The notes beneath the pieces were generated by a model. It saw only the letters and a list, made by a program, of their open reading frames with translations. It was not told the origin of the DNA and made no database searches. A stretch of 64,000 nucleotides of DNA from Candidatus Stoquefichus sp. SB1 (GTDB lineage Bacteria > Bacillota_I > Bacilli_A > Erysipelotrichales > Coprobacillaceae). How positions within the stretch are numbered: the stretch's first letter is position 1; each line of letters starts with the position of its first letter. The position numbers and the translations under genes are program-made. Below, in pieces: positions 2,614-38,068 of this stretch. The DNA is taken from contig NZ_LN852696.1 in assembly GCF_001244545.1 (NCBI RefSeq), forward strand, positions 930,001-994,000, read 5' to 3'.

Positions 2614-2952
2614 GTGGAAAAGATTAATGTTGATACAATCCACAGAACAAAGGAATATAAGGAACTGAAACAGGGGCTTATTGATCAGTTGAAATTTGAT
2701 GGAAAGGAAAATAATCAGAACCTGGACCTTATAAGTGATTATATGGATATGTATGTTACAAAGAAACTCTTAAAAGAGGATATCTTTGAAAGAGGTGTAA
2801 CGGTTGAAGTATATACTGCCAAAGGAGATGTGAATTATAAGAAGAATGACAGCATAACAGAACTGACAAAAGTCAATATGCAGATGCTTAGAATTCTACA
2901 GCATTTAAATATCAGCATTGGGGCAAATGGTGATGCTGATGACGAGATGTAA
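2614..2952 (+). CDS. P27-like phage terminase small subunit
   Basis: GTG 2614 is chosen because GGAGGTG (2598-2604) lies 9 bases upstream; an upstream GTG (2596) overlaps that Shine-Dalgarno. The 112-residue product is helical, with the P27-family layout: LISDYMDMYVTKKLLKEDI, then a short beta segment (GVTVEVYTAKGD), then a leucine-rich C-terminal helix (MQMLRILQHLNI). The small subunit recognises phage DNA and recruits the large subunit. It overlaps the large-subunit gene, as terS/terL pairs often do. Confidence 0.7.
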   Translation: MEKINVDTIHRTKEYKELKQGLIDQLKFDGKENNQNLDLISDYMDMYVTKKLLKEDIFERGVTVEVYTAKGDVNYKKNDSITELTKVNMQMLRILQHLNISIGANGDADDEM

Positions 2953-4579: not shown

Positions 4580-4596
4580 TGAAAGGAGGTGGTTGA

Positions 4597-6564: not shown

Positions 6565-6590
6565 ATTAAAAATTACCAAGGAGGAAAATT

Positions 6591-7772: not shown

Positions 7773-7774
7773 AA

Positions 7775-8095
7775 ATGCAAGATTTAAAGATCAGCAGTAC
7801 TTTCTTTGAAGAAATAAAAAATGACTGTGGTGTAACATGGGATAACGCAAAAACAAATACACGCATCAATGGCATTGTCAGTAATGCCATTGATGAATTT
7901 CAAGAATGGTTTGGTAAGGATGTAGATGTTGAACATTATGGAAATATTAGAAAAATGTTTATGGCGTATGTGAGATATCATTATTATGATCAGGGTGAAG
8001 ATTTCAAGAAGAATTATGCTTCTGATATCCTGAATGAAAGAATGAAATATGAGGTTACTGAATATGAAAAATCAAAACAAGCCAATGTATCGTGA
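7775..8095 (+). CDS. phage head-tail connector protein (gp6-like)
   Basis: A 106-residue mostly helical protein immediately downstream of the capsid gene, the usual position of the HK97 gp6/phage_connect adaptor. It contains EEIKNDCGVTWDNAKTNTRINGIV and a long C-terminal helix. It should form a ring under the portal. ATG 7775 follows the capsid stop by two bases, so it is probably reached by coupled translation. Family assignment rests on synteny and size. Confidence 0.7.
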   Translation: MQDLKISSTFFEEIKNDCGVTWDNAKTNTRINGIVSNAIDEFQEWFGKDVDVEHYGNIRKMFMAYVRYHYYDQGEDFKKNYASDILNERMKYEVTEYEKSKQANVS

Positions 8096-8426
8096 TGGAT
8101 ATATTTATATTCTTAAGGAAATCATTAAAAAAAATGAATTTAACGCAAAAGAAAAAGGGAAGTTCTATGAAATTATTGTAGAGCTTCCCTTTAATGAATT
8201 ATCAAAAAGAATCCAGGATAAGGAATTAATCAATAAGTTTGGTGCACAGCTGGATTTAAAGATAGAGGTTCCTAACTGTCAATTGAATTTTGATGATAAA
8301 TACTATGTTATTGTCAATAATGACAGCACAAAAGTATTTGATATTACATATCATGATGATACTGATGAAAGGTATTATCTTTATTTAACAATAGTAGGAG
8401 TGAAAGAAAATGTCACTATTGGTTGA
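8064..8426 (+). CDS. phage head-closure/adaptor protein
   Basis: ATG 8064 is chosen over ATG 8049 because GAGGT (8051-8055) is 8 bases upstream. The 120-residue product is beta-rich (FYEIIVELPF, DLKIEVPNCQLNFDDKYYVIV, YYLYLTIVGV), like the head-closure stopper proteins that follow gp6-type adaptors. It overlaps both neighbours by several codons. Function assigned by gene order. Confidence 0.6.
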   Translation: MKNQNKPMYRDGYIYILKEIIKKNEFNAKEKGKFYEIIVELPFNELSKRIQDKELINKFGAQLDLKIEVPNCQLNFDDKYYVIVNNDSTKVFDITYHDDTDERYYLYLTIVGVKENVTIG

Positions 8427-8769
8427 TATTAGAAAAAGTCTTGAAAAAGTTGATAAAAAGGTTTGCTATGGCAAGAGCTTTGATGATTATGTAAAAGAGA
8501 ACGGTTTTGATTTTATTGTATTTAGCAGAAAAGGCATGAAGAAATCAAAGCGAGATGTCATACGCACTTTTGAGGTAAACATTGTTAGAGAAAACTATAT
8601 ACCTGAAGGACTTGATATAAAAATCATAAAGGCTATTACAGAAAATACATGTCTAAAGTTTCCAAATGATCAGGAAATGCCATACAATTATATAAGAAAG
8701 GGAGATACAAGTGATTTAGTTGAGATACTGACACTGACATTTGTAAAAACAGAAACATGTCTTCTATAG
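8410..8769 (+). CDS. phage neck/tail-completion protein candidate
   Basis: A 119-residue protein overlapping the previous gene by 17 bases and the next by 13 bases. It is alpha/beta, with RTFEVNIVRENYIPEGLD and a strand-rich C-terminus (LVEILTLTFVKTE). In siphovirus modules the gene between head closure and the gp10-like protein completes the neck or tail terminator. No motif confirms which role it has. Confidence 0.5.
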   Translation: MSLLVDIRKSLEKVDKKVCYGKSFDDYVKENGFDFIVFSRKGMKKSKRDVIRTFEVNIVRENYIPEGLDIKIIKAITENTCLKFPNDQEMPYNYIRKGDTSDLVEILTLTFVKTETCLL

Positions 8770-9158
8770 AGTTTAAGCTAAAGGATGATGACCTCAAAAA
8801 AATAGAACAGTCAATCATGGAATATGGAGATGATGCAGAAAGCATTATCAACGATTTTTTAAGAGACTATGCTTCAAATATGGTCGTTGATGCAATTGTT
8901 GTAATGATTCCCCAAAGTGGAAGAATGTGGAAAGGGAAAAGAAAGCCAGCAAGAAGCGGCAATCCATTTAAGACAGATTTTATAAATCTAGGATTTACAA
9001 TAAAATCAAAGAAAACTTACAATTATCTGTATTTCCCTGATCAGGCAGCAGGTACATCACAGGGAAAAAGTCCACTCTTATTCATGGAGAAAGGAATGGA
9101 CAATGTATATGATTCAATTGTAAATGGAATTTTAAATAAATTAACAAAGGAGGAATAG
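8757..9158 (+). CDS. HK97 gp10-like phage neck/tail protein
   Basis: A 133-residue protein with the HK97-gp10 pattern: a helical N-terminus (LKKIEQSIMEYGDDAESIINDFL), the conserved middle with small and basic residues (SGRMWKGKRKPARSGNPF), and YLYFPDQAAGTSQGKSPLLFMEKG before a last helix. gp10-like proteins join the neck to the tail tube. It ends two bases after the Shine-Dalgarno of the tail-tube gene. Confidence 0.65.
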   Translation: MSSIEFKLKDDDLKKIEQSIMEYGDDAESIINDFLRDYASNMVVDAIVVMIPQSGRMWKGKRKPARSGNPFKTDFINLGFTIKSKKTYNYLYFPDQAAGTSQGKSPLLFMEKGMDNVYDSIVNGILNKLTKEE

Positions 9159-9161
9159 CAA

Positions 9162-9722
9162 GTGAGAAAAGAGTTTACTGAATACGAAGTTGAGGAGATG
9201 AATGTTAAACTTGAAAATGGTGATACATACATTGAAACAGGATGCATTGGAACGTCAGAAGAGACATTCAATACAAAAACAATTTCAAAAAAATGCAAAG
9301 GAATAGTGACAAAGCAGCGAACACGTCATGCAGGCGGTGGAGAAGTAAAGATAACTGGACACATTCTTTATAGTGCATACTGTAAAATGCATGGAATGGA
9401 AAACAGCGACTTAAAGGATGGTGTAATGTCCTATGGTTCTGGAACGCATCCGACAATGTGCGTAACTTTAAAGGTAAGAGATGAAGATAACATCTTAAAA
9501 TTGAAAGCATATCCTAATGCTGTCATATCAACTGGACCATCTAGAAAAATTGATGCAACAAGTGAAGAGGTTGCAGAGGTTGAAATGACATTGGCATTAT
9601 CAAATGATGAGTTCGGTCAATGCGAATATGAGAAAATTATTGAAGATGAAAAAACAGAGGAAGCATTCATAACTTCATGGATGACAAGTTTTACTCATGA
9701 TCTTGTAAAAAAAGCAGCATAA
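9162..9722 (+). CDS. phage major tail (tube) protein
   Basis: GTG 9162 with AAAGGAGG (9147-9153) at ideal spacing. The 186-residue product is beta-rich, with a large central insert (TRHAGGGEVKITGHILYSAYCKMHG) and a C-terminal EEAFITSWMTSFTHDLVKK. It lies directly before the tail-assembly chaperone pair, the hallmark position of the tail-tube subunit. Polymerises into the tail tube around the tape measure. Confidence 0.75.
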   Translation: MRKEFTEYEVEEMNVKLENGDTYIETGCIGTSEETFNTKTISKKCKGIVTKQRTRHAGGGEVKITGHILYSAYCKMHGMENSDLKDGVMSYGSGTHPTMCVTLKVRDEDNILKLKAYPNAVISTGPSRKIDATSEEVAEVEMTLALSNDEFGQCEYEKIIEDEKTEEAFITSWMTSFTHDLVKKAA

Positions 9723-9740
9723 TAAAGGAGAATATGATAT

Positions 9741-10040
9741 ATGGCAATGAAGTTTAAAATCAGTAATGAAACAGAGGTCAATATAGGATTGACATTTGCG
9801 AAATTATATAAATTAAAATTAGATAGCAAGACTCAAAAAGATTATGAGAAATTCAATGTGATTTTTAACAGAGGTGCAAAAGACGTATTTGATTATCTAT
9901 ATATCATATATGTTGCGTATCTATGTGAAAATGAAAATAAACAATATGAGTTTAATGACTTTATTGAAAATGTTGATTATTTTGATATGGATTATATAAT
10001 CAGGACAGTTAATGCTTTATCAAGTTCTAAAAAAAAGTAG
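9741..10040 (+). CDS. tail assembly chaperone gpG-like, upstream part of frameshift pair
   Basis: A 99-residue protein between the tail tube and tape-measure genes. It corresponds to lambda gpG-type chaperones that bind the tape measure and recruit tube subunits. The last sense codons before TAG (10038-10040) are AAA AAA AAG, giving a canonical A AAA AAG slippery heptamer (10031-10037). A fraction of ribosomes should slip by -1 and continue into the frame ending at 10267, making a 175-residue gpG-T fusion. Confidence 0.75.
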   Translation: MAMKFKISNETEVNIGLTFAKLYKLKLDSKTQKDYEKFNVIFNRGAKDVFDYLYIIYVAYLCENENKQYEFNDFIENVDYFDMDYIIRTVNALSSSKKK

Positions 10041-10079
10041 CATTTAGGGAGGCCTTTCAAAAAAAGAATAAGCCTCCCT
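10031..10079 (+). promoter_or_regulatory. programmed -1 ribosomal frameshift signal
   Basis: Slippery heptamer A AAA AAG at 10031-10037, in frame with the upstream gene. An 8-nt spacer (10038-10045) follows, then a perfect 8-bp stem AGGGAGGC (10046-10053)/GCCTCCCT (10072-10079) with an 18-nt loop. Slippery motif, 5-9 nt spacing and downstream hairpin are all present in the tail-chaperone position where frameshifting is conserved among siphoviruses. Confidence 0.8.
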
Positions 10080-10267
10080 TTAAAATGCCGAAATTTGAAC
10101 TAGAGGATATCGAGGATTACTATACATATTATGTTCAGATTTTAGGCATTAGTGAGGAATGCTTTTGGAATATGGATATCTCTTTTGTGATGTCGGTAGC
10201 TGAAAATAAAAGTGCGTATGATAGCTATATTACATATCATACAAATAAATTAAGAAATGAGGGATAA
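10037..10267 (+). CDS. tail assembly chaperone gpT-like extension, made by -1 frameshift
   Basis: The -1 frame is open from 10037 to TAA 10265-10267 and adds 76 residues to the upstream protein. The ATG at 10085 has no nearby Shine-Dalgarno, so independent initiation of a 60-residue product is less likely than frameshifting. The segment (ELEDIEDYYTYYVQILGI... and WNMDISFVMSVAENK) is helical and acidic, like gpT domains that contact the tail-tube subunit. It ends just before the tape-measure TTG start. Confidence 0.75.
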   Translation, partial: VAFREAFQKKNKPPFKMPKFELEDIEDYYTYYVQILGISEECFWNMDISFVMSVAENKSAYDSYITYHTNKLRNEG

Positions 10268-10269
10268 TA

Positions 10270-12474
10270 TTGGCAAAGAAAACACAAGCACAAATTGAAT
10301 TCATTGCGATAACAAAAGGTTATCAGGATGGAATCAAACAATTAAATATGTCAAACAAAACCCTACAGAATGAGCTGAAATTAAATTCGACAGAATTAAA
10401 GGGCAATGCAGATGACTCAACTCTATTGCAGAAAAGACAGTCATTATTGCAACAGGAAAGTCAAAACACTGCACAAAAGATAAAGCTGCTTGAAGATTCT
10501 TTATCCGAAGCAGAAAAAACATTAGGCAAAAACAGCAAGGAATATTACACGCTCAACAATTCATTAATATCCGCAAAGAATCAGCAGGCTGCAATACAGA
10601 ATGAAATCAAGCAGACAACTGCTAAGATGGAGGATCAAAAAAAGAAAACATCAAATCTCGATGAATCAATTGATGATTTAGGAGATTCCTTGAATGATAC
10701 TGAAAAGGATGTGTCAGTTTTTGGCGATGTTCTTAAAGCTAACCTAGCAAGCGATGCAATCAAGGAGGGATTTAGCCAGCTGACTGACCTTGTTATTACA
10801 AATGGAAATGACATGGAAAGAGCAACTAATCAATTATCGGCATCACTTGGTGCAACAGATGAACCTTTAGAATCATTTCGTGAAACTATGGATCAAATCT
10901 ATAGGGATAACTATGGTGAAAACTTTGATGATATTGCAGAATCCATTCGAGAGGTTTCTTCCCAGCTTGGTGATATGGAAAATGATGAACTGATTAGTGT
11001 TACTGAAAGTGCTATTGGGCTGCGTGATACATTTGATTTTGATGTTAAGGAATCAATACGTGCAGTAAAAATGATGATGGATCAGTTTGGATTAACATCT
11101 GATCAGGCTTTTAATTTGATTGCTCAAGGTGCACAGAACGGATTGGATAAAAATGGAGATTTGCTTGATACAATCAATGAGTATTCAGTTCATTTCAATC
11201 AAATTGGTATGGATGCTGATGATATGTTTAATGTTCTGTTAAAGGGAACAAACGCAGGAACATTCAGTGTTGATAAACTTGGAGATGCAGTTAAGGAGTT
11301 TAGTATTCGTATTAAAGACGGAACAGCGGATGAGGCATTAAAGAAACTTGGGTTAAATGTTGATGATGTCAAAAAAAGATTTGCACAAGGTGGTGAAGTT
11401 GGAAAGAAAGCATATCAGGAAATTAATCAAGCATTATTCAGTGTAAAAGATACAAATGAGCAGTTTAGTTTGGGAGTAACAATGTATGGAACAATGTTTG
11501 AAGATTTAGGTGCTGATGGAGTGCAGTCTCTTAGCAATTTAAACGGTATTATGGATATGAACATTGATTCTATGAATCAAATCAAGGAAGTTAAATATGA
11601 TGATGTTCTTGCGCAGCTTGAAGGACTCAAAAGAGGATTTGAACAGGATATAAGTGGTACGTTATCAACTTTTGTTTTCCCAGCGTTAAGTCAATTATTA
11701 ACGTGGGTTGGAGATAACAAGGATCTTATAGGTGCATTGGTATTAGGTATAGGAGCAGGAGCGACAGCATTTGGAACAATAACTCTTGCAATTGGTATCT
11801 ATAATGGAATTATGGATATTATGGCTTTGTCCACTGGTGCTGCCACTGTAGCAACCACAGGGCTTGGAACTGCATTTACATTTGTAACAGGTCCAATAGG
11901 TATGATCACATTAGCAATTGGAGCAGCAGTTGCAGCAGGAGTTGCTTTATATAAGAATTGGGATACTGTATGCTCCTGGGCTAACAAGGTAAAAACAACG
12001 GTTGCCAATGCATGGAATGGAATAAAGACTGCTATTGTAGACAAAATAACTGGTGCAAAGAATGTCGTATCAAATGTAATTAATGCAATAAAAGGATTTT
12101 TCTCATTTAAATTTTCATGGCCAAAATTGCCATTACCTCATTTTTCGGTAAAACCGAAAGGATGGGGAATAGGTGATCTTTTAAAAGGGAAGATACCATC
12201 TTTAGGAATAAGCTGGTATGCAAAAGGTGGTTTTTTTAAAGGCCCAACTGTCCTAAGTGGATTAGGAGAGGCTGGGAATGAATATGCATTGCCATTAAAT
12301 GATAGAACAATGACACCATTAGCAAGCCTACTTGCCGAGAAGTTGAACGGTATAGGATCATCTGTAGCACAGGATTTATATGCGGATATATATATTAATG
12401 TGGGTGATGGGATGTTGGTTGAAAATGTAAGCAAAAAAGTAGCAATCAAAGTAAGGAGGGAGAAGCGATCATGA
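10270..12474 (+). CDS. phage tail tape measure protein
   Basis: 734 residues starting at TTG 10270, with GAGGG 7 bases upstream. Residues 1-165 are a long coiled coil (Gln/Lys/Glu heptads). Residues about 165-460 form a phage tail tape-measure domain with the typical MSNK/LGATDEPLESFRE region. Hydrophobic membrane-inserting segments occupy about 485-560 (GALVLGIGAGATAFGTITLA and GPIGMITLAIGAAVAAGVAL). The C-terminal FKGPTVLSGLGEAGNEYALPL is conserved in this family. The modest length implies a tail of roughly 100 nm. No lysozyme domain was seen. Confidence 0.93.
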   Translation: MAKKTQAQIEFIAITKGYQDGIKQLNMSNKTLQNELKLNSTELKGNADDSTLLQKRQSLLQQESQNTAQKIKLLEDSLSEAEKTLGKNSKEYYTLNNSLISAKNQQAAIQNEIKQTTAKMEDQKKKTSNLDESIDDLGDSLNDTEKDVSVFGDVLKANLASDAIKEGFSQLTDLVITNGNDMERATNQLSASLGATDEPLESFRETMDQIYRDNYGENFDDIAESIREVSSQLGDMENDELISVTESAIGLRDTFDFDVKESIRAVKMMMDQFGLTSDQAFNLIAQGAQNGLDKNGDLLDTINEYSVHFNQIGMDADDMFNVLLKGTNAGTFSVDKLGDAVKEFSIRIKDGTADEALKKLGLNVDDVKKRFAQGGEVGKKAYQEINQALFSVKDTNEQFSLGVTMYGTMFEDLGADGVQSLSNLNGIMDMNIDSMNQIKEVKYDDVLAQLEGLKRGFEQDISGTLSTFVFPALSQLLTWVGDNKDLIGALVLGIGAGATAFGTITLAIGIYNGIMDIMALSTGAATVATTGLGTAFTFVTGPIGMITLAIGAAVAAGVALYKNWDTVCSWANKVKTTVANAWNGIKTAIVDKITGAKNVVSNVINAIKGFFSFKFSWPKLPLPHFSVKPKGWGIGDLLKGKIPSLGISWYAKGGFFKGPTVLSGLGEAGNEYALPLNDRTMTPLASLLAEKLNGIGSSVAQDLYADIYINVGDGMLVENVSKKVAIKVRREKRS

Positions 12475-13187
12475 GCGAAGTGATAATTAAACTAAATGAT
12501 GAAACATTAACATTAAGTGAATATAACGCTGAATTTAATGGGTATGACTGTGATTTGGGAAGTGTAGAAACAAAAACATACAAAACAATGCATGGAACAA
12601 ATGAAAGATATATAAATTCAATATTCAATCCACATGAATTGACCGTAGAGTTTATCGTAAGAAAATATAGCAATGTGCTAGCACTTGCTCGTATCCTTAC
12701 TAATCCAATATTTGAATTTGTAGATGATGAATTAGTTTATGAATCATCAATTAATGAATTTGAATATGAATATATTTCAGGAGATGATTATCTCCTGAAA
12801 TTGATATACAATGCATACATTTTTGAAAATAGATATTCAAATACACCTATTAAAGCAAATACAACTGTCAATATAGACAGTCCATCACCAACAGCAATTA
12901 ATATAGAGGTAAAAGCTAATGAAACATTAGTGAATAAGGTTATTACACTTTCATATTTTGATTTCTTTACCAACAAAAAATATCAAAATGATATAAAGAT
13001 CATAAGTCTAATAAATGGTAAAACTGCTTTGATAAATTCTGATAAATTTCTATGTTTCATCGATGAAAACCAACTCTATCTCAATAACATAAATATAAAT
13101 CTGTATCCATATACAAAAGGTAAAATTGATGTAAGAGGAATAGATGAAACTCTTGAATTAAACATTATGTATAGAAAGGCATATTAA
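12471..13187 (+). CDS. phage distal tail protein (Dit-like)
   Basis: A 238-residue protein overlapping the tape-measure stop by 4 bases (ATGA). Beta-rich N-terminal segment with a conserved GYDCDLGSVETKTYKTMHGTNE, typical of phage_tail/Dit (siphovirus baseplate hub). The C-terminal domain is galectin-like beta (TAINIEVKANETLVNKVI). Dit forms the hexameric ring linking the tail tube to the tail-tip protein encoded next, which it overlaps by one base. Confidence 0.75.
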   Translation: MSEVIIKLNDETLTLSEYNAEFNGYDCDLGSVETKTYKTMHGTNERYINSIFNPHELTVEFIVRKYSNVLALARILTNPIFEFVDDELVYESSINEFEYEYISGDDYLLKLIYNAYIFENRYSNTPIKANTTVNIDSPSPTAINIEVKANETLVNKVITLSYFDFFTNKKYQNDIKIISLINGKTALINSDKFLCFIDENQLYLNNININLYPYTKGKIDVRGIDETLELNIMYRKAY

Positions 13188-16100
13188 TGTTAAAGCATGT
13201 TAGAACAAATAGAGAAATAGATATTGATAGAGATAGTTTTTTTATTACGATAGAGGAAAACGGAACAAAGCAGATAGAATTTGATATTTCAACAAATTAC
13301 GATTTATTCTCTTTAATAAAAAATGAAGATAGAATTGAATATGATAATCTTTATTTTTTGGTAAAGGAAATTAGTGAAGAGGATTTTAATGCAACAATCG
13401 TTTGCAATTTAGATACAGATGATCTAAAAGGTGAAGTTCTACAAAGCTACAGAAGTGAAAGTCAAACGGAAATAAATGTATTAAACAGTATATTAAGCAG
13501 CATTGGATGGAAAGCAAGCGGAGAAACATCTAATCAGAAAAGAACAATTGAAATTGAAGATGCAACTAAATATGATATTATCTTACAGATTCAAAATACC
13601 TTTGGATGCTATACAGATTTTGATAACAAGAACAAGATTCTCTATGTATCATATCAAAAGGAATTTAATGAAAATGGATTCTTTGTATCAGAACAGGTCA
13701 ATCTTAAAAAAGTTGAATATACAAGTGATACATATGATATTGTGACTCGTATATATGGATTTGGAAAAACAGATGATGAAACTGGTCAAACAGTTACATT
13801 TTCTTCAATCAACAATGGCAAGAATTATGTAGAGGATTTATCATTTAAAGGGAAAGTTATTTCAAAAATAATTCGTGATGATAGATTTACTGATCCACAG
13901 GCACTTTATGATTACTGCCAAAAAGAGTTGAATAAATATGCAAAACAAGTTGAATCATTTGAACTTGACATTATCGACTTATCAAAATTAAAAAGTGAAG
14001 AATATAGATTATTTAACTATAAGATAAGGGATATGGTTGACTATATTGATATTAGAAATAATCGAAGAGTTCTACATAGAATAGTTAAAATAGTAGAGTA
14101 TCCATTTGCTCATGAAAAAGATAAAATCACATTAAGCACAGCATCAGATTCGATTGAAAACTTGATGACAAAAACTCAATCAAGCATTTCTCAAATAGGA
14201 ACATCATTTCAGCAAAATCTAGTAGCTATAAATGCAAAGATTTCAGGAAAACTGGAAACAACTGAATTTGAAGCATTAAAAGCAAAGATAGAAGAATTAA
14301 ACGTTCTAGATTTAAGCGCTACAGTCGCAAAAATTGAACAGGCTTATATAAGCAGACAAGATGTTGAATTGTCGTATGTAAAGAAAGAAATAGTTGAAGA
14401 TTTGAACGCCAAAGTAGCAACTATAGAAACAAATTATGTAGACAAGCAATACGTCAATGAAAATTATGTTACAAAGCAATATGTAAACGAAAACTATGTA
14501 ACAACACAATTTGCCAATCAAACATATGCAATCAAAAGTGAAGTTAAAGATTTAACTGTTGATATTGCTAAAATTAATACATTGTTATCTGGAAGCGTTA
14601 ATGCAGGTTCTACACAGACTATTGTGTTGAACGCAGAGAACACAACTATAGCAAATGCACTTATTAAATCAGCAATGATTGATAGTCTTGATTTTAACAA
14701 AATTACAGGTATTGATATAAACACTACAAAATTGAATATACATTCCAATGATGGTTATTCAACTTGGAAAGACAATACTATTCTTATTAAAGATAGTACA
14801 CGTACAAGAGTTCAAATTGGTAAGGATGCACAAGGAGACTATAACATCTATATCTGGGATAAAGATGGAAAGGTAATGTTTGATCCGTTGGGCTTAACCG
14901 CTGATGGAGTTAACAGAGAAGTTATTGACAACTCCAACGTAAAAGAAAATGCTGGTATTAAAGGTTCTAAATTAGATATAGATAGTGTTATTACAGAAGT
15001 AAATGGTGCAACAACAACTATTAAGTCTAGTAAAATCTACTTTGATGAAAAGAAACAGACTCTTGACGTTGCTTTCAATACAATGTCTAATACTGTTACA
15101 GAGACAACAAAGGTCGTTGAGACTGCCAATACGAATGCAAATAATGCATTATCTAAAGCGAATACTGCAATAACAGATAGTGCAAGTGCAAAGACTACTG
15201 CTAACACTGCTAAATCAACAGCAGATAACGCTAAAACTGTAGCGGATGTGGCTAAAACGACAGCAGATGGAGCAAACACTAAAGCAACAACTGCTAGTAC
15301 CAATGCTAGCAATGCTTTAGCAAAGGCAAACCAACTTGAAACAAAAGTGACAACTGTAGAGAATACAGTAAAGTCACAAAGCACTCAAATAAGTACAGCA
15401 CAAGGACAGATTAGCACTCTTATTACAGATGTCACTCAAGCAAAAAAGGACATCACGACAGTTACAGGGGATGTCACAACAGCAAAAACTAATATTACTA
15501 CATTAACAAATAACTATAGTAGTGTTAAGCAAACGATTGATGGGCTTTCTACAACTGTAGGAAGTCATACGAGTAGTATTGCAAATATTAGCACTACTGC
15601 TAACAATGCCTTGAATACTGCAAACAGTAAAGCGAAGGTATTTACTGCTACACCAACAACTCCATACAAAGTAGGTGATTTGTGGGTACAGGGTGCTACA
15701 GGTGTAATTATGAAATGTAAGGTTGCTCGTGCAAGTGGTTCTTATGTTGCTGGTGATTGGGAAAAGGCTGATAAGTACACAGATGATGCAACTGCTAACA
15801 AAGTTAGAACTGACTTAACAGCAAGCATTAAAACAGTCGCAGACAAACAAGCAACTTTTGAGACATCCTTGAGTGGTATTACAAGTAGAGTAAGTTCTAC
15901 AGAGACAACTGTTGCGACTGTAACTAACACAGTCAATAACAATAAAGCAAATTGGGATAAGGCGCCTACAGCATTAACAAATGCTAACAATGCACAAGCT
16001 ACTGCAAATAGTGCAGTGCTTGGTAATAAAGTAGATGCATTAAATAATTCAAAATTATTTAAAAATGTAGCAAGTTATAGCTATGATGGTGAAAGTATAA

Positions 16101-18406
16101 AGGGAGCATTTGTAATAGTTACACCTATAGTTCCTTTGCATATGTGTCGATTTAGAATAACAGGATATAACTATGTAACAACTACAAACAACAACATAGA
16201 TATAACAATCACATGCTATAACTATACATCATCAATTATTAATTGTTCTTATACAAATGATGGTAACGTTCCATTTAGTTTAGTTAGACTAGCAAAGGTT
16301 AGTTCATCTGATTCCAGATTAGTGATTATTCTTGGAAGTGGAACAGATACATGGAATTATCCAAAACTACAAGTTGAGAGTGCACTTGTAAGTTATTCGA
16401 CTGTTGCGCCAGATACTTGGAAAGATGGTTGGAGTATAAGCTTAGTTACAATATTTCCAACTACATATACACATTTAGTGTCTGTTGGTGGTATGAATAT
16501 ACAAACAGAAATAACATCTACTAAATCTACTGTAGCAACCCATACAACACAACTTACAAATATTACATCTCGTGTGAGTACAGCAGAGACAAACATAACA
16601 AAAGTAAACGGAAATGTAACAGCATTAACAACTCGTATGAGTACCGCAGAGCAAAAAGTTACAGATAGCGCAATTGTTAGCACCGTTACTAAATCTAGTA
16701 GTTGGACTACGTTAAACACTAAGGCTACAGATGCACAAACAAAAGCAAACAATCTTGTAGACTTAACTACAATCAAGGATACAAGAAGTGTTAACAATAA
16801 CCCTTCATGGTATTTATCTAACTATCCAAGAAAGACTGTTAAAGAATTTAAACAGTGTAGTACAATGGGGATTAGTGGAGAAGGCACTTATGGAACTCTA
16901 GAGACTAGTGTATCATGGCCAGATACAGGAGGAGGTTATCCTGTACAATTATTTTATCCAAACACCAGTCAAAATATTTATCGTAGGGTTGGGACTTCAA
17001 CGACTGCTTGGGGTGCTTGGACTAAGGTCGCAGGAACTCATAATGCTATTTCTGTTATCAATCAAACTGCCGAGCAAATTAAAATTCAAGCGAGCAAAAT
17101 AGCACTAGAAGGTCTTGTTACTGCAAATAGTAGATTTAAAATATTAACAGATGGCTCTATGGAGGCTGTTAATGGGAAATTTAGTGGAAATATAAATGCT
17201 ACAAGTGGGAATATCTCAGGATTTACATTAGCGTCAAATAGGATGTATGCGACATCAACGAAAACTTTTGATTATACGAGCAATGATATTGAAACAATAA
17301 AAAACATTATTTTAGGAAGAGTTCCATCAACAGGACAATTCAATAGATATGATTTAAACGGTGATGGAGTTATCGATTCTATGGATCATTACTATATTGT
17401 AAAAATAATAAATGCTGGGAATAAAATTGATACAAGTCTATCAATATATCCAAAATTTGATACAGGAACAAATTATAACCAAGCTATATTTGAGGCTAAG
17501 GCTGATGGCTTTTTTACAACTAAAATAACAAGTACAGGTCAATTGTATAGTGACGTTGCAACATTTGATACTTGTTATGCAAATAATGCAACTCTTAAAG
17601 AGCTACATATCGATATGTATAATGGTTCATTTGATACAGGTGATCAGGGATTAGAAATATGGGGGAATACCCCATTTATTGATTTCCATCATGGCAATGA
17701 TGCAGTTGATTATACATCGAGACTTATTTGCTATAACAATGGCGAGTTAACTTGTGAAAATGATTTTCGTGTGACAGGTACTTCTTATTTTACAAAATCG
17801 GTGAGACTGAGTGGTGCTCTTGTTTTAGCAAATGCTCAATATCTATATGGAATTGACACAGGTGGTACTTGGAGATGGATGACTGTTATGGGTGATAACA
17901 ATGTTGAATACTTTGGTGACAACAGTTGTCAAACGTGTTTAAGAGGATCTAAAGTATATCTTAGCATGTCTGGCGCAACTGTCACGTCTGATAGACGTTA
18001 TAAAAACAACATAAGAGATTTTGATAAGAGATATGAAAATTTCTTCAATGAATTAAAGCCACAAACGTTTAGATTTAATAAGGATAAAGAGAATCTAACA
18101 AACCTCGGATTTATTGCTCAAGATGTTCAAACAGCGATTAGAAATAGTAGTTTGGATGAGAATCATAATTTTGTATCAAAAGTGATTGATGAAGATGGTA
18201 GTGAGTTATTGGGACTTGTCTATGAACAATTCATTGCATTGAACACTCATATGATCCAAAAAAATATAGCATCTATAGAAAATATCAAATATGTTCAGAT
18301 TGAACATGATAGACAACTCTCTAATCTAAAATATGATAATGAAAGATTAAAGAAAAAAGTAGAATTATTAGAACAAGAAATCAATCAATTAAAAGGGCTT
18401 GCGTAA
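13187..18406 (+). CDS. tail-tip/receptor-binding protein with pyocin-knob, EF-hand insert and S74 chaperone
   Basis: 1739 residues. Residues 1 to about 330 match the prophage endopeptidase-tail (Tal) type. A long coiled region follows, with YVNENYVTKQ-type repeats near 415-440 and Ala/Thr/Asn-rich heptads near 640-730. About 1190-1285 resembles a pyocin-knob domain (WYLSNYPRKTVKEFKQC ... WGAWTKVAG). Residues 1389-1400 are a perfect EF-hand/dockerin loop (DLNGDGVIDSMD). The C-terminus is a peptidase S74 intramolecular chaperone: S1601 and K1606 (SDRRYK) give the expected Ser-x4-Lys dyad, so a 139-residue piece should be cleaved off after trimerisation. Host adsorption is the inferred role. Confidence 0.85.
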   Translation: MLKHVRTNREIDIDRDSFFITIEENGTKQIEFDISTNYDLFSLIKNEDRIEYDNLYFLVKEISEEDFNATIVCNLDTDDLKGEVLQSYRSESQTEINVLNSILSSIGWKASGETSNQKRTIEIEDATKYDIILQIQNTFGCYTDFDNKNKILYVSYQKEFNENGFFVSEQVNLKKVEYTSDTYDIVTRIYGFGKTDDETGQTVTFSSINNGKNYVEDLSFKGKVISKIIRDDRFTDPQALYDYCQKELNKYAKQVESFELDIIDLSKLKSEEYRLFNYKIRDMVDYIDIRNNRRVLHRIVKIVEYPFAHEKDKITLSTASDSIENLMTKTQSSISQIGTSFQQNLVAINAKISGKLETTEFEALKAKIEELNVLDLSATVAKIEQAYISRQDVELSYVKKEIVEDLNAKVATIETNYVDKQYVNENYVTKQYVNENYVTTQFANQTYAIKSEVKDLTVDIAKINTLLSGSVNAGSTQTIVLNAENTTIANALIKSAMIDSLDFNKITGIDINTTKLNIHSNDGYSTWKDNTILIKDSTRTRVQIGKDAQGDYNIYIWDKDGKVMFDPLGLTADGVNREVIDNSNVKENAGIKGSKLDIDSVITEVNGATTTIKSSKIYFDEKKQTLDVAFNTMSNTVTETTKVVETANTNANNALSKANTAITDSASAKTTANTAKSTADNAKTVADVAKTTADGANTKATTASTNASNALAKANQLETKVTTVENTVKSQSTQISTAQGQISTLITDVTQAKKDITTVTGDVTTAKTNITTLTNNYSSVKQTIDGLSTTVGSHTSSIANISTTANNALNTANSKAKVFTATPTTPYKVGDLWVQGATGVIMKCKVARASGSYVAGDWEKADKYTDDATANKVRTDLTASIKTVADKQATFETSLSGITSRVSSTETTVATVTNTVNNNKANWDKAPTALTNANNAQATANSAVLGNKVDALNNSKLFKNVASYSYDGESIKGAFVIVTPIVPLHMCRFRITGYNYVTTTNNNIDITITCYNYTSSIINCSYTNDGNVPFSLVRLAKVSSSDSRLVIILGSGTDTWNYPKLQVESALVSYSTVAPDTWKDGWSISLVTIFPTTYTHLVSVGGMNIQTEITSTKSTVATHTTQLTNITSRVSTAETNITKVNGNVTALTTRMSTAEQKVTDSAIVSTVTKSSSWTTLNTKATDAQTKANNLVDLTTIKDTRSVNNNPSWYLSNYPRKTVKEFKQCSTMGISGEGTYGTLETSVSWPDTGGGYPVQLFYPNTSQNIYRRVGTSTTAWGAWTKVAGTHNAISVINQTAEQIKIQASKIALEGLVTANSRFKILTDGSMEAVNGKFSGNINATSGNISGFTLASNRMYATSTKTFDYTSNDIETIKNIILGRVPSTGQFNRYDLNGDGVIDSMDHYYIVKIINAGNKIDTSLSIYPKFDTGTNYNQAIFEAKADGFFTTKITSTGQLYSDVATFDTCYANNATLKELHIDMYNGSFDTGDQGLEIWGNTPFIDFHHGNDAVDYTSRLICYNNGELTCENDFRVTGTSYFTKSVRLSGALVLANAQYLYGIDTGGTWRWMTVMGDNNVEYFGDNSCQTCLRGSKVYLSMSGATVTSDRRYKNNIRDFDKRYENFFNELKPQTFRFNKDKENLTNLGFIAQDVQTAIRNSSLDENHNFVSKVIDEDGSELLGLVYEQFIALNTHMIQKNIASIENIKYVQIEHDRQLSNLKYDNERLKKKVELLEQEINQLKGLA

Positions 18407-18444
18407 AGTCCTTTTAATTATAAAAAAAACAAGGAGGATATTTT

Positions 18445-18696
18445 ATGAATATTACACAACAAGAAAACACAAAGGTAATTTTGAAAGCGGATTTAACAGT
18501 AAAAGATGAAATAATCGGAAATCTTGAAGGAACGGTTTCAAATTACGATTATGACAACATTGGAATTAACATTAACATCTACAATTCTATGAAAAAGCAA
18601 TTATGTGATAATGATGCAACATTAAAAGCAGATATTAACACTTTTATTGAAAGTGTGATTGCAAAGCAAAAAGAATTATTGGGAGGTACTAAATAA
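18445..18696 (+). CDS. phage hypothetical protein after tail fibre (83 aa)
   Basis: ATG 18445 follows AAGGAGG. The product is small, with alternating beta segments (KVILKADLTVKDEIIGNLEGTV) and a C-terminal helix. It overlaps the next gene by one base. The position between tail fibre and holin suggests a baseplate or fibre accessory, but no family is recognised. Confidence 0.55.
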   Translation: MNITQQENTKVILKADLTVKDEIIGNLEGTVSNYDYDNIGININIYNSMKKQLCDNDATLKADINTFIESVIAKQKELLGGTK

Positions 18697-19115
18697 TGGA
18701 AATGACAAACAGAGAAATGATTGGTCATCTTAACCAATTAGCAATTATCAATGAAAAGTTAGGTGGAGAACTTAACTACAAGATTTCTCGTAACAAGGAA
18801 AAGTTAACAAAGGAATATGAACAATTTGACAAGGCACGTCAAGAGGCTAAGAAAGATTATTGTGAACTTGATGAAGATGGCAATATTAAACAGGAGAAAG
18901 TTGATACTGATGATGAAAATTCAATCATGAAAGTTATTTTCCTTTCTGACGAAAAAGAAAAAGAATGGAATAAAGTTGAATTGAAGATGCTTGATGAAGA
19001 AAAAGTTAATATCGACATTAGAACTGTCAGTGAAGATGTTATCTTCAATTCAGAAGCAAGTCAGTACGCTACAGATGCAATGTTATTCATGATCAAGGAG
19101 GATGAAGAAAAATGA
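18696..19115 (+). CDS. DUF1617-like phage protein (139 aa)
   Basis: Highly charged helical protein. Residues 1-60 form a coiled coil (LNQLAIINEKLGGELNYKIS then KLTKEYEQFDKARQEAKK). The layout resembles DUF1617 proteins found near holin genes of Firmicute phages, a comparison made by eye only. It overlaps the downstream holin-like gene by 4 bases (ATGA). Function unknown. Confidence 0.5.
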   Translation: MEMTNREMIGHLNQLAIINEKLGGELNYKISRNKEKLTKEYEQFDKARQEAKKDYCELDEDGNIKQEKVDTDDENSIMKVIFLSDEKEKEWNKVELKMLDEEKVNIDIRTVSEDVIFNSEASQYATDAMLFMIKEDEEK

Positions 19116-19294
19116 AAGAATTAATTGCAAAGGTTACAAAATTAATTGATGTAAAGTCAATTATGACTCTTACGCTTACAGGAGCATTTGTTGCTTTGGT
19201 AAGTGGTGGAAGCATTGATGGCGATAAGTTCATGGCCATTTATACAATGATTGTGGGATTCTATTTTGGAACACAGTCAAATAAAAAAGACTAG
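19112..19294 (+). CDS. small holin-like membrane protein (60 aa)
   Basis: 60 residues with a hydrophobic helix (SIMTLTLTGAFVALVSGG) and a second weaker one (FMAIYTMIVGFYFGT), then a charged QSNKKD tail. Size, two membrane helices and location two genes before the endolysin fit a class II-type holin. ATG 19112 overlaps the preceding stop. The other candidate in the module is the following gene; the two may act together. Confidence 0.6.
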   Translation: MKELIAKVTKLIDVKSIMTLTLTGAFVALVSGGSIDGDKFMAIYTMIVGFYFGTQSNKKD

Positions 19295-19303
19295 AGGTGC
19301 TTT

Positions 19304-19591
19304 ATGACACCTGAAACTACAATTAGTTTATCTTTTCTAATGTCTATATTGTTGTTTTGTTTTACTGCTATTAATTTCTTTTCTAATCGCAAAAAAGATA
19401 CAAGAGAAGAAAGTAGAGAACTTATGAAAGCTAATATCAAATTAGAACAAATATGTTCAACAACAAATGAAACAAGAGCAGATATCAAAGCAATGAATAA
19501 TCAAATAGAAAAGATAAATCAAGAACAAATCAAACAAAGATTAGAAATTAATACAATATGGAAACGTATTGATGAATTAAAAGAAAGGTGA
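19304..19591 (+). CDS. XhlA-like membrane/coiled-coil lysis accessory protein
   Basis: 95 residues: an N-terminal transmembrane helix (ISLSFLMSILLFCFTAINFF), then a long coiled coil to the end (LEQICSTTNETRADIKAMNN ... RLEINTIWKRIDELK). This N-in anchor plus amphipathic helix is like haemolysin XhlA-type proteins paired with holins. GAGGTG precedes ATG 19304. It ends one base into the endolysin leader. Confidence 0.55.
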   Translation: MTPETTISLSFLMSILLFCFTAINFFSNRKKDTREESRELMKANIKLEQICSTTNETRADIKAMNNQIEKINQEQIKQRLEINTIWKRIDELKER

Positions 19592-19596
19592 TGTTT

Positions 19597-20484
19597 ATGA
19601 AAGTACAGGATTTTATAAATAAAGCTGTAGAGGTTGAGAAATTACCTACACTTTATCAATTAGGAAAATTTATGAATAGTCAAAATGGAAAATATTTATT
19701 GTGTGACTGTTCGGGATTAATTAAAGGTATTCTTTGGGGATTCCCAAAGAATGGTAAATATGCGAATAATGGAGTTCCTGATATTAATGCTGATACAATG
19801 ATTTCAAGATGTTCAAATGTTACAACAGATATGTCAAAACTTCAAAGGGGGTGGCTTGTCTGGATGAAAGGGCATATCGGAATATATGTTGGTAATGGTG
19901 TAGTTATTGAATCGAGTCCTATATGGGAAAATGGAGTACAGAGAACATATCCTAAAGGATGTGGAAAACAAAATGCTTATGGTCTTAAATCAAGACAGTG
20001 GACAAAATGTGGTAAATTTGATAAGTATATTGATTATTCTAGCGAAAGTGAATCTGCTCCTTCTAAGCCTAAAGACACAAAAGTAAATGTATTTTATCGT
20101 GTAAGAACACAAAAGCATGGATGGCTTAGCGAAGTAAATAATCTTGAAGATTATGCTGGTTATCAAGATAGCCCTATTACAGATGTTGCTATTAGAGTAG
20201 ACAAGGGTAAGATAAAATATCGTGTGCATGTTAAAGGTAGTGGGTGGCTTGGTTGGATAACAGACTGTAATATTAAAGATTCTTCTAAATATGCTGGTAA
20301 TGGAAAAGTGATAGACGCTATTCAGGTCTACTATTACACACCTGATTCAATTAGACCTTATAAACGTGCGAAGTATAAAACAAATTATGGGTGGCAATAT
20401 GATATAGAAACCACAAGTGGTCAAGATGGTTACGCTGGTGTGTTTGGAAAGAACGTAACGAAATTATATGTGGAGATCGTTTAA
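19597..20484 (+). CDS. phage endolysin, NlpC/P60-like peptidase with cell-wall-binding C-terminus
   Basis: ATG 19597 is preferred over the GTG/ATG at 19588/19591 because AAAGGTG (19584-19590) sits 6 bases upstream. Residues 1 to about 145 are an NlpC/P60-type peptidase: nucleophile C38 in CDCSGL, His in GHIGIYVGNG. Residues about 165-295 carry two related Trp-rich units (KHGWLSEVNNLEDYAG and GSGWLGWITDC...) like clostridial hydrophobic-W repeats, presumed to bind the wall. No signal peptide, so export needs the upstream holin. It cleaves peptidoglycan stem peptides at lysis. Confidence 0.85.
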   Translation: MKVQDFINKAVEVEKLPTLYQLGKFMNSQNGKYLLCDCSGLIKGILWGFPKNGKYANNGVPDINADTMISRCSNVTTDMSKLQRGWLVWMKGHIGIYVGNGVVIESSPIWENGVQRTYPKGCGKQNAYGLKSRQWTKCGKFDKYIDYSSESESAPSKPKDTKVNVFYRVRTQKHGWLSEVNNLEDYAGYQDSPITDVAIRVDKGKIKYRVHVKGSGWLGWITDCNIKDSSKYAGNGKVIDAIQVYYYTPDSIRPYKRAKYKTNYGWQYDIETTSGQDGYAGVFGKNVTKLYVEIV

Positions 20485-29610: not shown

Positions 29611-30675
29611 ATGAAAAAATATGTTTTCTTATTATTAGGAGTTTGTTTATTATTAAAGCAAGTATCTCCTGTGTTAGCAAGTGAAACAACAACACTACAA
29701 TTAGATTCTCATCAGCAGTTAACAACAACGATTGAATCAAATCAACAAGTTGTTAAAATTGTAAATCCCTTAGCCTATGATCTTCAAATTTGTGCTTTAA
29801 CAATCAGTGAAGCAGATCAATTGATATTTACATTTGATGATCAACAAAATCTCACTTTTGAAGAATTAAAAGCAAAAATATTCACCCAAATCATATTATC
29901 AAATCAAAGTATAGAATTTTCATTTCAATTTAAAAATGATACTCATCAGCAAATAACAATCTTTTTAGAGTGGTTATCAATTATGGTGAGTGGTTATGTT
30001 TATATTGATAATCATGGACAGAGTGAACCGAAAAGCCAAGTTAAGATTGATTTATGGGAAGAGAATAATCTTATTGATACAACTTATACTGATGAAAAAG
30101 GATATTATCAATTCAAGCGATACAACACTCAGCAGTATTGGTTAAAAATACCTGATTTAGACCAATATACACTTCAACATACACCATCACAACAAAAATC
30201 AGCTTATGTTTTTACTTCTCAGGAATTTACTCAACATTATGATTTTCTGTTAACACCGCTCACTTATCACTTGTATTATGATACAAATGGTGGAGAAATC
30301 ACTTCACCACTACCCCAAAAATCTTATTCATTTAATGATTCAATATCAGTTACATCTTTTCCGATATTAAAAAGAGATGGCTATTCTTTTAAAGAATGGA
30401 ATGAAGCTAAGGATGGAAGTGGTATAAGTTATCAAAATAATGACATTTTGATAATGCCTGCTCATGATGTGACTTTATATGCAATTTGGGAAAAAACAGA
30501 TCGTTCAAGTGCAAAAAGATCATCTCAGTCAACCAAGTCGTTGAATCCAAAAAAACAAAAGGAACATGTCAAGACTTCAGATGATACATCAATAACAATT
30601 ATTGCTTTATTGTTTTTAGCAAGTTTATCTATTTTAATTGTTTTAAAAGTTTTAAAGAAAAAAGAAAACAAATAA
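29611..30675 (+). CDS. secreted surface protein with SdrD-B-like and InlB-type repeat domains
   Basis: 354 residues. Signal peptide 1 to about 24 (KKYVFLLLGVCLLLKQVSPVLA). Residues about 130-200 resemble a Cna_B/SdrD-B beta-sandwich (VSGYVYIDNHGQSEPKSQV, YTDEKGYYQFKRY). Residues about 223-296 are one InlB/Listeria-Bacteroides repeat (YDTNGGEITSPLPQKSY ... GYSFKEW ... HDVTLYAIW). A Ser/Lys linker leads to a C-terminal membrane helix and KKKENK tail. The expected sortase motif is degenerate: VKTSDDTS where PKTGDDTS would be typical. It is probably membrane-tethered rather than wall-linked. Confidence 0.75.
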   Translation: MKKYVFLLLGVCLLLKQVSPVLASETTTLQLDSHQQLTTTIESNQQVVKIVNPLAYDLQICALTISEADQLIFTFDDQQNLTFEELKAKIFTQIILSNQSIEFSFQFKNDTHQQITIFLEWLSIMVSGYVYIDNHGQSEPKSQVKIDLWEENNLIDTTYTDEKGYYQFKRYNTQQYWLKIPDLDQYTLQHTPSQQKSAYVFTSQEFTQHYDFLLTPLTYHLYYDTNGGEITSPLPQKSYSFNDSISVTSFPILKRDGYSFKEWNEAKDGSGISYQNNDILIMPAHDVTLYAIWEKTDRSSAKRSSQSTKSLNPKKQKEHVKTSDDTSITIIALLFLASLSILIVLKVLKKKENK

Positions 30676-36408: not shown

Positions 36409-36420
36409 TTTATAAAATAA

Positions 36421-36466
36421 AGAAGGATGAAAATCATTGTTTATCAATGATTTTTACCCTTCTTTT
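36421..36466. terminator. bidirectional terminator between flavodoxin and anti-sigma genes
   Basis: AGAAGG...AAAATCATTG (36421-36439) pairs with CAATGATTTT...CCTTCT, giving a long two-part stem with T tracts on both strands. It separates convergent operons. Confidence 0.8.
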
Positions 36467-36476
36467 TAAATATCAA

Positions 36477-37205
36477 TTATGAATGCTTATGATTTTGATG
36501 ATGATTGTCTTGGTTATGGTTAGGCTGACAACGATCTGGCACGAGTTCCTGATTGAAATTATATAAGATCGTATATAATTCTTGAATAGATAACTGATTT
36601 AATTCTTCTAATGAATATTGAGAAGTATAAGATATAATTGCTTCTATAATTTGATATTTACCAGCTGATATATGATGTGTTGCAGCATTGTGATGTGTTT
36701 CTTGAGTGATTTGTGAACAATGATATTGATTTGTATCTAGATGTTTTTCAAATAAAAGATTAAGAGTTGATTCTATTTTTTGAGATAATTTTTGATTATC
36801 TGAAAAAACAGTTACTTCTAATATACCATCACTAAGATAATTTTCATATTGTGTATCATTCAACAACTGTTGTATTGCTGATTGGAGTTTTTTTCCCTGG
36901 ATAGACACTTGGTCTAAGATTTTTTGAGCTTCCTGATTGTAAGCAATCGTTTCTACAACAATGTTTTCTTGATTTAAGTGTAACTCCATACTAGGATTAA
37001 TATCTAAAGATACATAAGCTACAGGTGTTGTAGATGGCTCAACTGAAAATATGAAAAAAAGCAGTAGACAGGCAATCAGTGGAAGGCATAAAAGTGCTTT
37101 TGGATATCTTTTTTTATGGAAAATGGAATCAAGAGTTTTCTCTTTCGTCACTTGACTTGCGTGAATTGAATCGAGTTCTTGCAATGGGTTATTCAAGATA
37201 ATCAC
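36477..37205 (-). CDS. RsgI-like anti-sigma factor with His-rich tail
   Basis: 242 residues. Residues 1-35 are cytosolic and probably bind sigma. Residues about 36-54 form one membrane helix (ALLCLPLIACLLLFFIFSV). The exported part opens with YVSLDINPSMELHLN, the RsgI-family signature containing the N70-P71 bond at which RsgI-type proteins are known to self-cleave. A helical domain follows (about 85-200). The tail is His-rich (PNHNQDNHHQNHKHS, 5 His). It overlaps the sigma gene by 17 bases. It should hold the upstream ECF sigma inactive until an envelope signal arrives. Confidence 0.78.
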   Translation of the reverse strand: MIILNNPLQELDSIHASQVTKEKTLDSIFHKKRYPKALLCLPLIACLLLFFIFSVEPSTTPVAYVSLDINPSMELHLNQENIVVETIAYNQEAQKILDQVSIQGKKLQSAIQQLLNDTQYENYLSDGILEVTVFSDNQKLSQKIESTLNLLFEKHLDTNQYHCSQITQETHHNAATHHISAGKYQIIEAIISYTSQYSLEELNQLSIQELYTILYNFNQELVPDRCQPNHNQDNHHQNHKHS

Positions 37206-37680
37206 CTCCTAAGATATCTTTTAACTGAACTTTGGCACGTTTTAACCAAGTATGAATCGTATTTTCTTTTTTATGTAAAATTGCTGCAATATCACTTACT
37301 TTATAACCTTCATAATAAAAAAGATAAATGACATTTCGATAATGTTCTGGTAAAGATAATACAGCTTGCATTAAATCAGATGTTTGATGATAAGTGAGAT
37401 AGGAATTGTCCTGTGATAATTCTTCCATATTAATTTTTGAATCAGTATATTTATAAAACCAGCTTTTAAAAATATCTTTACAGGCATTCATTGTGACTCG
37501 AATAAGCCATGCTTTTTCATGTTCTTCATTTTCAAAAAGAGGAGCCTTTGCATACTTTAAAAAGACAGTCTGAAAAACATCATCCACATCACATTGTTGT
37601 TTCATGTGAATAAAGCAAATTTTTTGTATCATATCTGCATATTGATCGATTGCTTTTCTCATTTCTTCTTCTGTACGCAT
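37189..37680 (-). CDS. ECF-type RNA polymerase sigma factor
   Basis: 163 residues. Region 2: DQYADMIQKICFIHMKQQC, DVDDVFQTVFLKY, and KAWLIRVTMNACKDIFKS (promoter melting and -10 recognition). Region 4: LPEHYRNVIYLFYYEGYKV and SDIAAILHKKENTIHTWLKR (HTH for the -35). ATG 37680 follows ATGAGGGG. It overlaps the anti-sigma gene, the usual cognate arrangement. The operon promoter (38063 region) has ECF-type elements, so autoactivation is likely. Confidence 0.9.
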   Translation of the reverse strand: MRTEEEMRKAIDQYADMIQKICFIHMKQQCDVDDVFQTVFLKYAKAPLFENEEHEKAWLIRVTMNACKDIFKSWFYKYTDSKINMEELSQDNSYLTYHQTSDLMQAVLSLPEHYRNVIYLFYYEGYKVSDIAAILHKKENTIHTWLKRAKVQLKDILGGDYLE

Positions 37681-37707
37681 AAGCCCCTCATATGATTCTG
37701 TTTTGTA

Positions 37708-38016
37708 TTAGTGATGTTGAGTATGAGAATGATGATTCTCATGATGTGTTGATTGACCATGGTGTTCATCTTTCTTATTCTCATTGAAATGCTGTTCATG
37801 ACAGTTTGTATGTCCTAAAATACATTGTGTTTGAGATGCCTCATTGTTGGCATAGCCTTGCTGGCCAATGCAATTAGATTGAACTGTGCTCATAGATATT
37901 GCATTAGTTGTAGGTTCCTGATTAGCTGGATAGGCAGCAACATTTTGCAGCTGCATAATAGCTAGTAGCCCCATTATAACAAAACTACATATAAAAAGAT
38001 ATTTTATTTTTCTCAT
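37708..38016 (-). CDS. small secreted His-rich protein, first gene of the sigma-factor operon
   Basis: 102 residues. Signal peptide 1 to about 28 (KIKYLFICSFVIMGLLAIM, probable cleavage after VAA). The mature protein has three Cys (SNC, TQC, TNC) and a C-terminal 34 residues containing 12 His (DEHHGQSTHHENHHSHTQHH), strongly suggesting metal binding. AAGGAGG precedes ATG 38016. It is the first gene after the ECF-type promoter and 27 bases before the sigma gene. The anti-sigma protein of the same operon also carries a His-rich tail. No family recognised. Confidence 0.75.
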   Translation of the reverse strand: MRKIKYLFICSFVIMGLLAIMQLQNVAAYPANQEPTTNAISMSTVQSNCIGQQGYANNEASQTQCILGHTNCHEQHFNENKKDEHHGQSTHHENHHSHTQHH

Positions 38017-38039
38017 ATGAAATCCTCCTTATCACTAAT

Positions 38040-38068
38040 AATACGATTACCTAACAGAAAAACTTTCA
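38040..38068 (-). promoter_or_regulatory. ECF-sigma-type promoter of the His-rich/sigma/anti-sigma operon
   Basis: On the minus strand TGAAAG (38068-38063), exactly 17 bp, then CGTATT (38045-38040). The TGAAAC and CGTA/CGTC pattern is the consensus for Bacillus ECF factors such as SigW/SigM/SigX, and no sigma-A pair overlaps. A short leader leads to AAGGAGG (38030-38024). Confidence 0.75.

Follow-up and report, generated by a model that had tools for sequence, protein, structure and literature searches.

The window analysed here, a stretch of 64,000 nucleotides, comes from the 3.59 Mb genome of Candidatus Stoquefichus sp. SB1. Its minus strand carries a compact three-gene operon, in which an ECF-type promoter is followed by a gene for a small secreted protein, an ECF sigma factor gene, a gene for an RsgI_M-type anti-sigma factor and a strong hairpin that runs into a T-rich stretch (Table 1). 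An earlier sequence-only reading had described three tightly ordered genes encoding a secreted protein with 12 His in its last 34 residues and three Cys, an ECF sigma factor and an anti-sigma factor with YVSLDINPS and a His-rich end, and we recovered every one of these elements. A simple sigma-70 promoter and terminator scan gave no signal above chance. Elsewhere in the window, the ORF translations suggest a prophage-like gene run at 2918-20484 (terminase, portal, capsid, tape measure, tail, amidase-like), and inspection by eye picked out, at 29611-30675, a secreted protein that combines a Listeria-Bacteroides-like repeat with a membrane anchor at its C terminus.

Table 1. Features of the sigma/anti-sigma operon and the basis on which each was assigned
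Feature	Position in window	Strand	Basis
ECF-type promoter TGAAAG-N17-CGTATTA	38039..38068	-	sequence pattern search
Small secreted His/Cys-rich protein, 102 aa, first gene of the operon	37708..38016	-	sequence, AlphaFold2
Signal-peptide-like N-terminal segment, about residues 1-28	37933..38016	-	sequence and model helix 2-23; extent by eye
His-rich tail of the secreted protein, 12 His in last 34 residues	37711..37812	-	sequence count
ECF sigma factor, 163 aa	37189..37680	-	Sigma70_r2, Sigma70_r4_2, TIGR02937
Membrane anti-sigma factor, about 239 aa, probable TTG start	36477..37196	-	PF23750, AlphaFold2, Foldseek
Transmembrane helix of the anti-sigma factor, model helix 36-49	37047..37088	-	AlphaFold2 model and hydrophobic sequence
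RsgI_M / SEAL domain of the anti-sigma factor, residues 58-184	36642..37022	-	hmmscan and fold match
Asn-Pro bond (DINPS), predicted autoproteolysis site	36993..36998	-	sequence
Cys of the YHC motif within the SEAL domain	36717..36719	-	alignment column of relatives
His-rich C-terminal tail of the anti-sigma factor, 5 His in 14 residues	36480..36521	-	sequence count
Terminator-like hairpin at the operon end	36419..36465	-	-21.9 kcal/mol, z=-5.9

Domain and structure comparisons bore out the proposed pairing of an ECF sigma factor with an RsgI-like partner. The sigma factor matched Sigma70_r2 (E=6e-8) and Sigma70_r4_2 (E=7e-14) and scored above the cut-off of TIGR02937; it contains regions 2 and 4 only, and an anti-sigma gene adjoins it, as is characteristic of the ECF class. 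The product of the adjoining gene passed the cut-off of RsgI_M (PF23750, E=1.4e-26). Its likely start codon is the TTG at 37196, which was preferred because it lies ten bases after an AGGAGG that the GTG at 37205 would almost overlap; numbered from this start, the predicted cleavable bond becomes N67-P68, correcting the previously assigned N70-P71. An AlphaFold2 model built with 71 relatives as input (pLDDT 91.5) runs from a short two-helix cytoplasmic part through a single transmembrane helix to an exported domain, and Foldseek matched the latter to 8t9n and 8hdj (TM 0.74-0.79, prob 1.00), the closest structures being those of Bacillus RsgI and Clostridium thermocellum RsgI2. In the model, the exported domain thus has the SEAL/RsgI fold.

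The anti-sigma factor has this fold, the Asn-Pro site and a single transmembrane helix in common with the RsgI/SEAL proteins of Bacillus subtilis (RsgI) and C. thermocellum (RsgI1-9). Unlike them, it is paired with a two-domain ECF sigma factor (Sigma70_r2 and r4_2) instead of SigI, gave no match to RsgI_N in the Pfam search, ends in a short His/Gly-rich tail rather than a carbohydrate-binding C-terminal domain, and belongs to an operon headed by a gene for a small secreted protein. Given the missing RsgI_N domain and the ECF partner, we regard it as a relative of RsgI by fold and not as a classical RsgI. Long-form RsgI paralogues encoded in the same genomes are associated with different sigma factors, have no small gene beside them and lack the His tail.

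SEAL-domain proteins cut themselves at an Asn-Pro bond. In RsgI, self-cutting of the periplasmic domain is the first step of intramembrane proteolysis (PMC12203970). From its sequence, self-cleavage of the window anti-sigma factor at Asn-Pro is plausible, and a gene of the site-2 protease family (M50) is present in the same genome. The bond is retained in 94 of 101 relatives and absent from seven (about 7%), as well as from one found later (G005), which indicates that not every copy depends on autoproteolysis. Asn-Pro is replaced (for example by DA, QS or DS) in the short anti-sigma factors of L085, L090, L095, L165, L176, L203, L215 and L250, and at the first three of these loci the tail is also short and devoid of His. 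In addition, the alignment column of the YHC/YCY motif holds Cys in 56 of 71 relatives.

The small protein has a hydrophobic N-terminal signal segment ahead of its three Cys residues and matches no Pfam or NCBIfam family. Its His content stands apart within the window: no other ORF of at least 80 aa exceeds 6 His per 34 residues, and His makes up about 16% of this protein compared to 0.2-3.9% of eight other exported or membrane proteins. AlphaFold2 returned a confident helix for residues 2-23 and a pLDDT of about 48 for the remainder, and once the signal segment is removed the mature protein is predicted to be disordered. Across relatives the secreted protein diverges fast, and what persists is the signal segment, the Cys residues (median 6) and low-complexity stretches with much His, Gly or Asn.

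The conservation of small protein and ECF-RsgI pair had been proposed as a check within Erysipelotrichia, and it proved to extend far beyond that group. A search of 148 relatives showed that other Erysipelotrichales share this trio of genes and its order. A scan of one genome per species with a sigma-factor alignment yielded 566 relatives, of which the best 80 loci belonged to Lachnospiraceae, Oscillospiraceae, Christensenellaceae, Erysipelotrichales and others. After manual checking, 95 of 103 parsed loci (from Erysipelotrichales, Lachnospiraceae, Oscillospiraceae and other Clostridia) had a small secreted protein, with Cys and a signal-like N-terminus, encoded directly upstream of the sigma factor; two of the other eight are cut by a contig end and six lack the small gene. 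A close relative of the anti-sigma factor is also carried by 18 of 246 genomes sampled from the order of one Lachnospiraceae genome (G618). The motif and promoter counts given below derive from an automatic choice of the small ORF, which took the wrong ORF at L167, L180, L211 and L213 and omitted L182, while the composition statistics were computed on a manually corrected set.

No flanking gene is conserved around the module, with the largest neighbour cluster covering 6 of 91 loci, and we conclude that no other effector belongs to it. This bears on the reading of the secreted protein as a peptide toxin or RiPP precursor under the control of the sigma pair, a role that would suit its small size, repeats and rapid divergence. 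However, no conserved modification, export or immunity gene adjoins the module and the sole match to a RiPP model fell far below its cut-off, making this reading very improbable indeed.

We then turned to the promoter, whose TGAAAG-17-CGTATT sequence had been noted previously. With the final A included, the element at 38068-38039 is the sole zero-mismatch copy in the genome. A search for TG[AC]A[AT]G-N16-18-CGT[AG]T within 160 bases upstream of the automatically chosen small gene found an ECF promoter at 82 of the 93 module loci, where shuffled sequence would be expected to give 0.09, and the loci that failed mostly hold near matches. The consensus is TGaAwG-N17-CGTaT, so that the first gene is preceded by a CGT-type -10 element (CGTAT or CGTGT), in keeping with an autoregulated ECF operon.

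A strict pattern occurred 35 times in the 148 relatives and once in the reversed control. Sixteen of these matches lie directly at the module; most others represent a recurrent match within a conserved coding gene, leaving a few further coding and non-coding sites. In five named Clostridia genomes, the pattern was found solely at the module in four (2.2-7.6 Mb) and was absent from the fifth. Allowing one or two mismatches in the window's own genome gave 12 matches compared to 18 in the reversed control, and with no excess over that control there is no evidence for further regulon members; the sites inspected were mostly inside coding frames, among them one recurrent match within a conserved coding gene. 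Strict patterns of this kind reach near-consensus promoters, and weaker ones further from the consensus may exist. Since each genome holds essentially one plausible copy, at the module, the main predicted target of the sigma factor is its own operon. The conserved promoter ahead of the small gene lends support to the suggestion that the operon activates itself, and the simplest reading of these sequences is an autoregulated three-gene operon with the secreted protein as its output.

The main new observation is that the His content of the two exported parts covaries. Across 91 loci, the secreted protein and the anti-sigma tail correlate in their His fractions (rho 0.67), and phylogenetic contrasts on the sigma tree gave r=0.64 (p=0.0002), so the idea that the two His-rich tails belong together survives correction for ancestry. 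Contrasts of the secreted protein with the sigma factor (r=0.02) or with the 35 cytoplasmic residues of the anti-sigma factor (r=0.12) served as controls. When the Erysipelotrichales set was taken by itself, rho was a weak 0.35 (p=0.11) for raw His counts and 0.61 for His fractions. Gly and Asn also correlate between the two exported parts, while Cys, Asp and Ser do not (91 loci). In the outlier G005, both parts are instead rich in Gln and Asn. Two loci without a small gene (L171 and L211) have no His/Gly tail on the anti-sigma factor, and at four others (L096, L180, L181 and L213) a His- or Gly-rich tail occurs without a small gene next to the sigma factor.

Such similarity could be a by-product of exported low-complexity regions in one species drifting towards the same composition, with no ligand in common. 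Asn, and to some extent Gly, follow the composition of the sigma factor or of the anti-sigma cytoplasmic part as well, indicating that genome composition contributes to those two correlations. His, however, is uncorrelated with either, and the other exported and membrane proteins of the window are His-poor beside the small protein; we therefore consider drift distinctly improbable. The His covariation instead points to contact between the two exported parts or to a common ligand. A common ligand seems the more likely cause, although direct protein contact or a shared envelope niche could also produce the pattern.

The nature of the ligand may differ between branches of the family. In the window clade, the secreted proteins combine a CxxGHxxC motif with His-rich sequence, and this motif together with the 12 His and three Cys makes a transition metal such as Zn, Cu or Ni our best guess, and the most likely ligand, for the window copy. 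The metal binding proposed by the sequence-only reading is plausible at this locus. In many relatives, Gly/Asn-rich tails replace the His-rich ones and DxDxDGxCD repeats are carried, and for this reason 'transition-metal sensor' cannot define the whole family. A DxDxDGxC-type pattern resembling a calcium loop was detected in the secreted protein of 72 of 97 relatives in the automatic set, often as 'FVDADGDGVCDN' repeats, and a pattern search found no DxDxDG loop in the window copy. These repeats recall TSP3 and EF-hand-like calcium repeats, in contrast to the Cys/His motifs of the window protein; matches of relatives to EF-hand, Excalibur and TSP3_bac were all sub-threshold, with no such model reaching its cut-off. 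Relatives with DxDxDGxCD repeats could bind Ca2+ or another cation, and possible ligands across the family include calcium, other cations and envelope-active molecules.

A ligand other than a metal would fit a role in envelope protection: it might be a cationic peptide, a polymer of the wall or a factor from the host, and the sticky disordered protein would cover the surface or serve as a decoy. The secreted proteins of many relatives are rich in Gly, Asn and Arg and poor in His, with anti-sigma tails of similar character, and systems combining ECF factors with regulated intramembrane proteolysis often sense envelope attack, as exemplified by RsiV and lysozyme (PMC9044953). Against this, covariation is cleanest for His, and the frequent Cys and DxDxDGxCD motifs favour cation binding. 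We consider such a protective role unlikely. The secreted proteins of two loci end in a List_Bact_rpt domain instead of a His/Gly tail (tested for L184, judged by eye for L140), which suggests that these two are attached to the surface.

By analogy, the functional layout that the module appears most like is CnrYXH of Cupriavidus, a known trio of ECF sigma factor, membrane anti-sigma factor and periplasmic Ni-Co sensor (PMC7689651). CnrYXH and Ncc resemble the module in their ECF sigma factor, an anti-sigma factor with a very short cytoplasmic part and a third exported, possibly metal-binding protein. On this model, the secreted protein would be the metal sensor: once loaded, it would contact the anti-sigma factor, perhaps bridging the His tails, and release of the sigma factor would set up positive feedback. 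The His-rich nature of both exported partners and their covarying His content speak for this arrangement. Several features argue against it. CnrX is a folded, membrane-anchored sensor, whereas the third protein here is secreted, predicted to be disordered and without a match to any sensor family. No efflux or metal gene is conserved near the module, and the single promoter copy in the genome and the variable flanks leave no efflux operon under the same promoter. Tailed anti-sigma factors exist at the four loci without an adjoining small gene. The module also differs from CnrYXH and Ncc in the SEAL domain of its anti-sigma factor and in its host, a member of the Bacillota. Moreover, two genomes (G067, locus L246 on contig C48; G096, locus L247 on contig C16) encode homologous secreted DxDxDGxCD/His-rich proteins but have neither a sigma nor an anti-sigma gene in the vicinity, and this speaks more for an effector than for a sensor subunit. 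Homologues away from such genes and without His-rich tails had been named in advance as evidence against the circuit; the two orphans have the first property and lack the second, as both retain their His-rich tails. We regard a CnrX-like sensor as a doubtful explanation.

SigV-RsiV and SigP-RsiP control defence enzymes, and a signal peptidase makes the first cut in their anti-sigma factors. These Gram-positive systems are activated through regulated intramembrane proteolysis. The module resembles them in joining an ECF sigma factor to a membrane anti-sigma factor, and a site-2 protease step is expected here as well. It differs in that the sole predicted target is its own operon and that the first cut would probably be autoproteolytic.

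The reading we prefer, at a probability of about one half, is that the module is a widespread and self-contained extracytoplasmic homeostat built around one ligand common to the anti-sigma tail and the disordered secreted protein. The computations support its framework: a predicted ECF promoter drives the three genes, apparently as the only strong target of the sigma factor; the first gene yields a small exported protein that is predicted to be disordered beyond its signal segment; and the modelled anti-sigma factor joins a short cytoplasmic part through one transmembrane helix to a SEAL domain with Asn-Pro and a low-complexity tail that tracks the His content of the secreted protein. To judge from the covariation and the single-target regulon, both exported parts would bind the same extracellular ligand, and its level would be read by the tail. 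Ligand binding, or a change in it, may separate the pieces of a SEAL domain already cleaved at Asn-Pro, after which a site-2 protease would free the sigma factor to induce the operon; autocleavage, site-2 proteolysis and sigma release are modelled here on known families. The newly made secreted protein would then mop up the ligand or coat the surface, thereby resetting the anti-sigma factor.

More tentatively, and at less than even odds, the module may represent a new type of homeostat common in gut Bacillota, in which the only output of a sigma factor is a disordered secreted protein that competes for one ligand with the similarly composed tail of its SEAL anti-sigma factor, so that sensor and product coevolve in composition and not in fold. 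Our literature search, which did not reach the SEAL-domain and ECF-classification papers, returned no description of the module, in line with the impression that the circuit is not obviously described. It is an unusually small signalling circuit, made up of a single promoter, a single output and a single anti-sigma factor, that recurs in gut Lachnospiraceae, Oscillospiraceae and Erysipelotrichales, and its secreted protein has no curated family. A ligand shared by sensor tail and product is a clear hypothesis that few constructs would suffice to test, and many uncharacterised 'FVDADGDGVCDN' and His-rich secreted proteins of gut Clostridia would gain a regulatory context and a testable function.

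Two further observations concern the history of the module. At one site (L100 / L006, G035:C1 near 2620500), the last third of the anti-sigma gene occurs alone, 72% identical to the window copy and without a sigma or small gene, and this remnant is a decayed module. In addition, one genome (G112) contains two module starts, L097 and L248, each truncated at a contig end, which may reflect a duplication.
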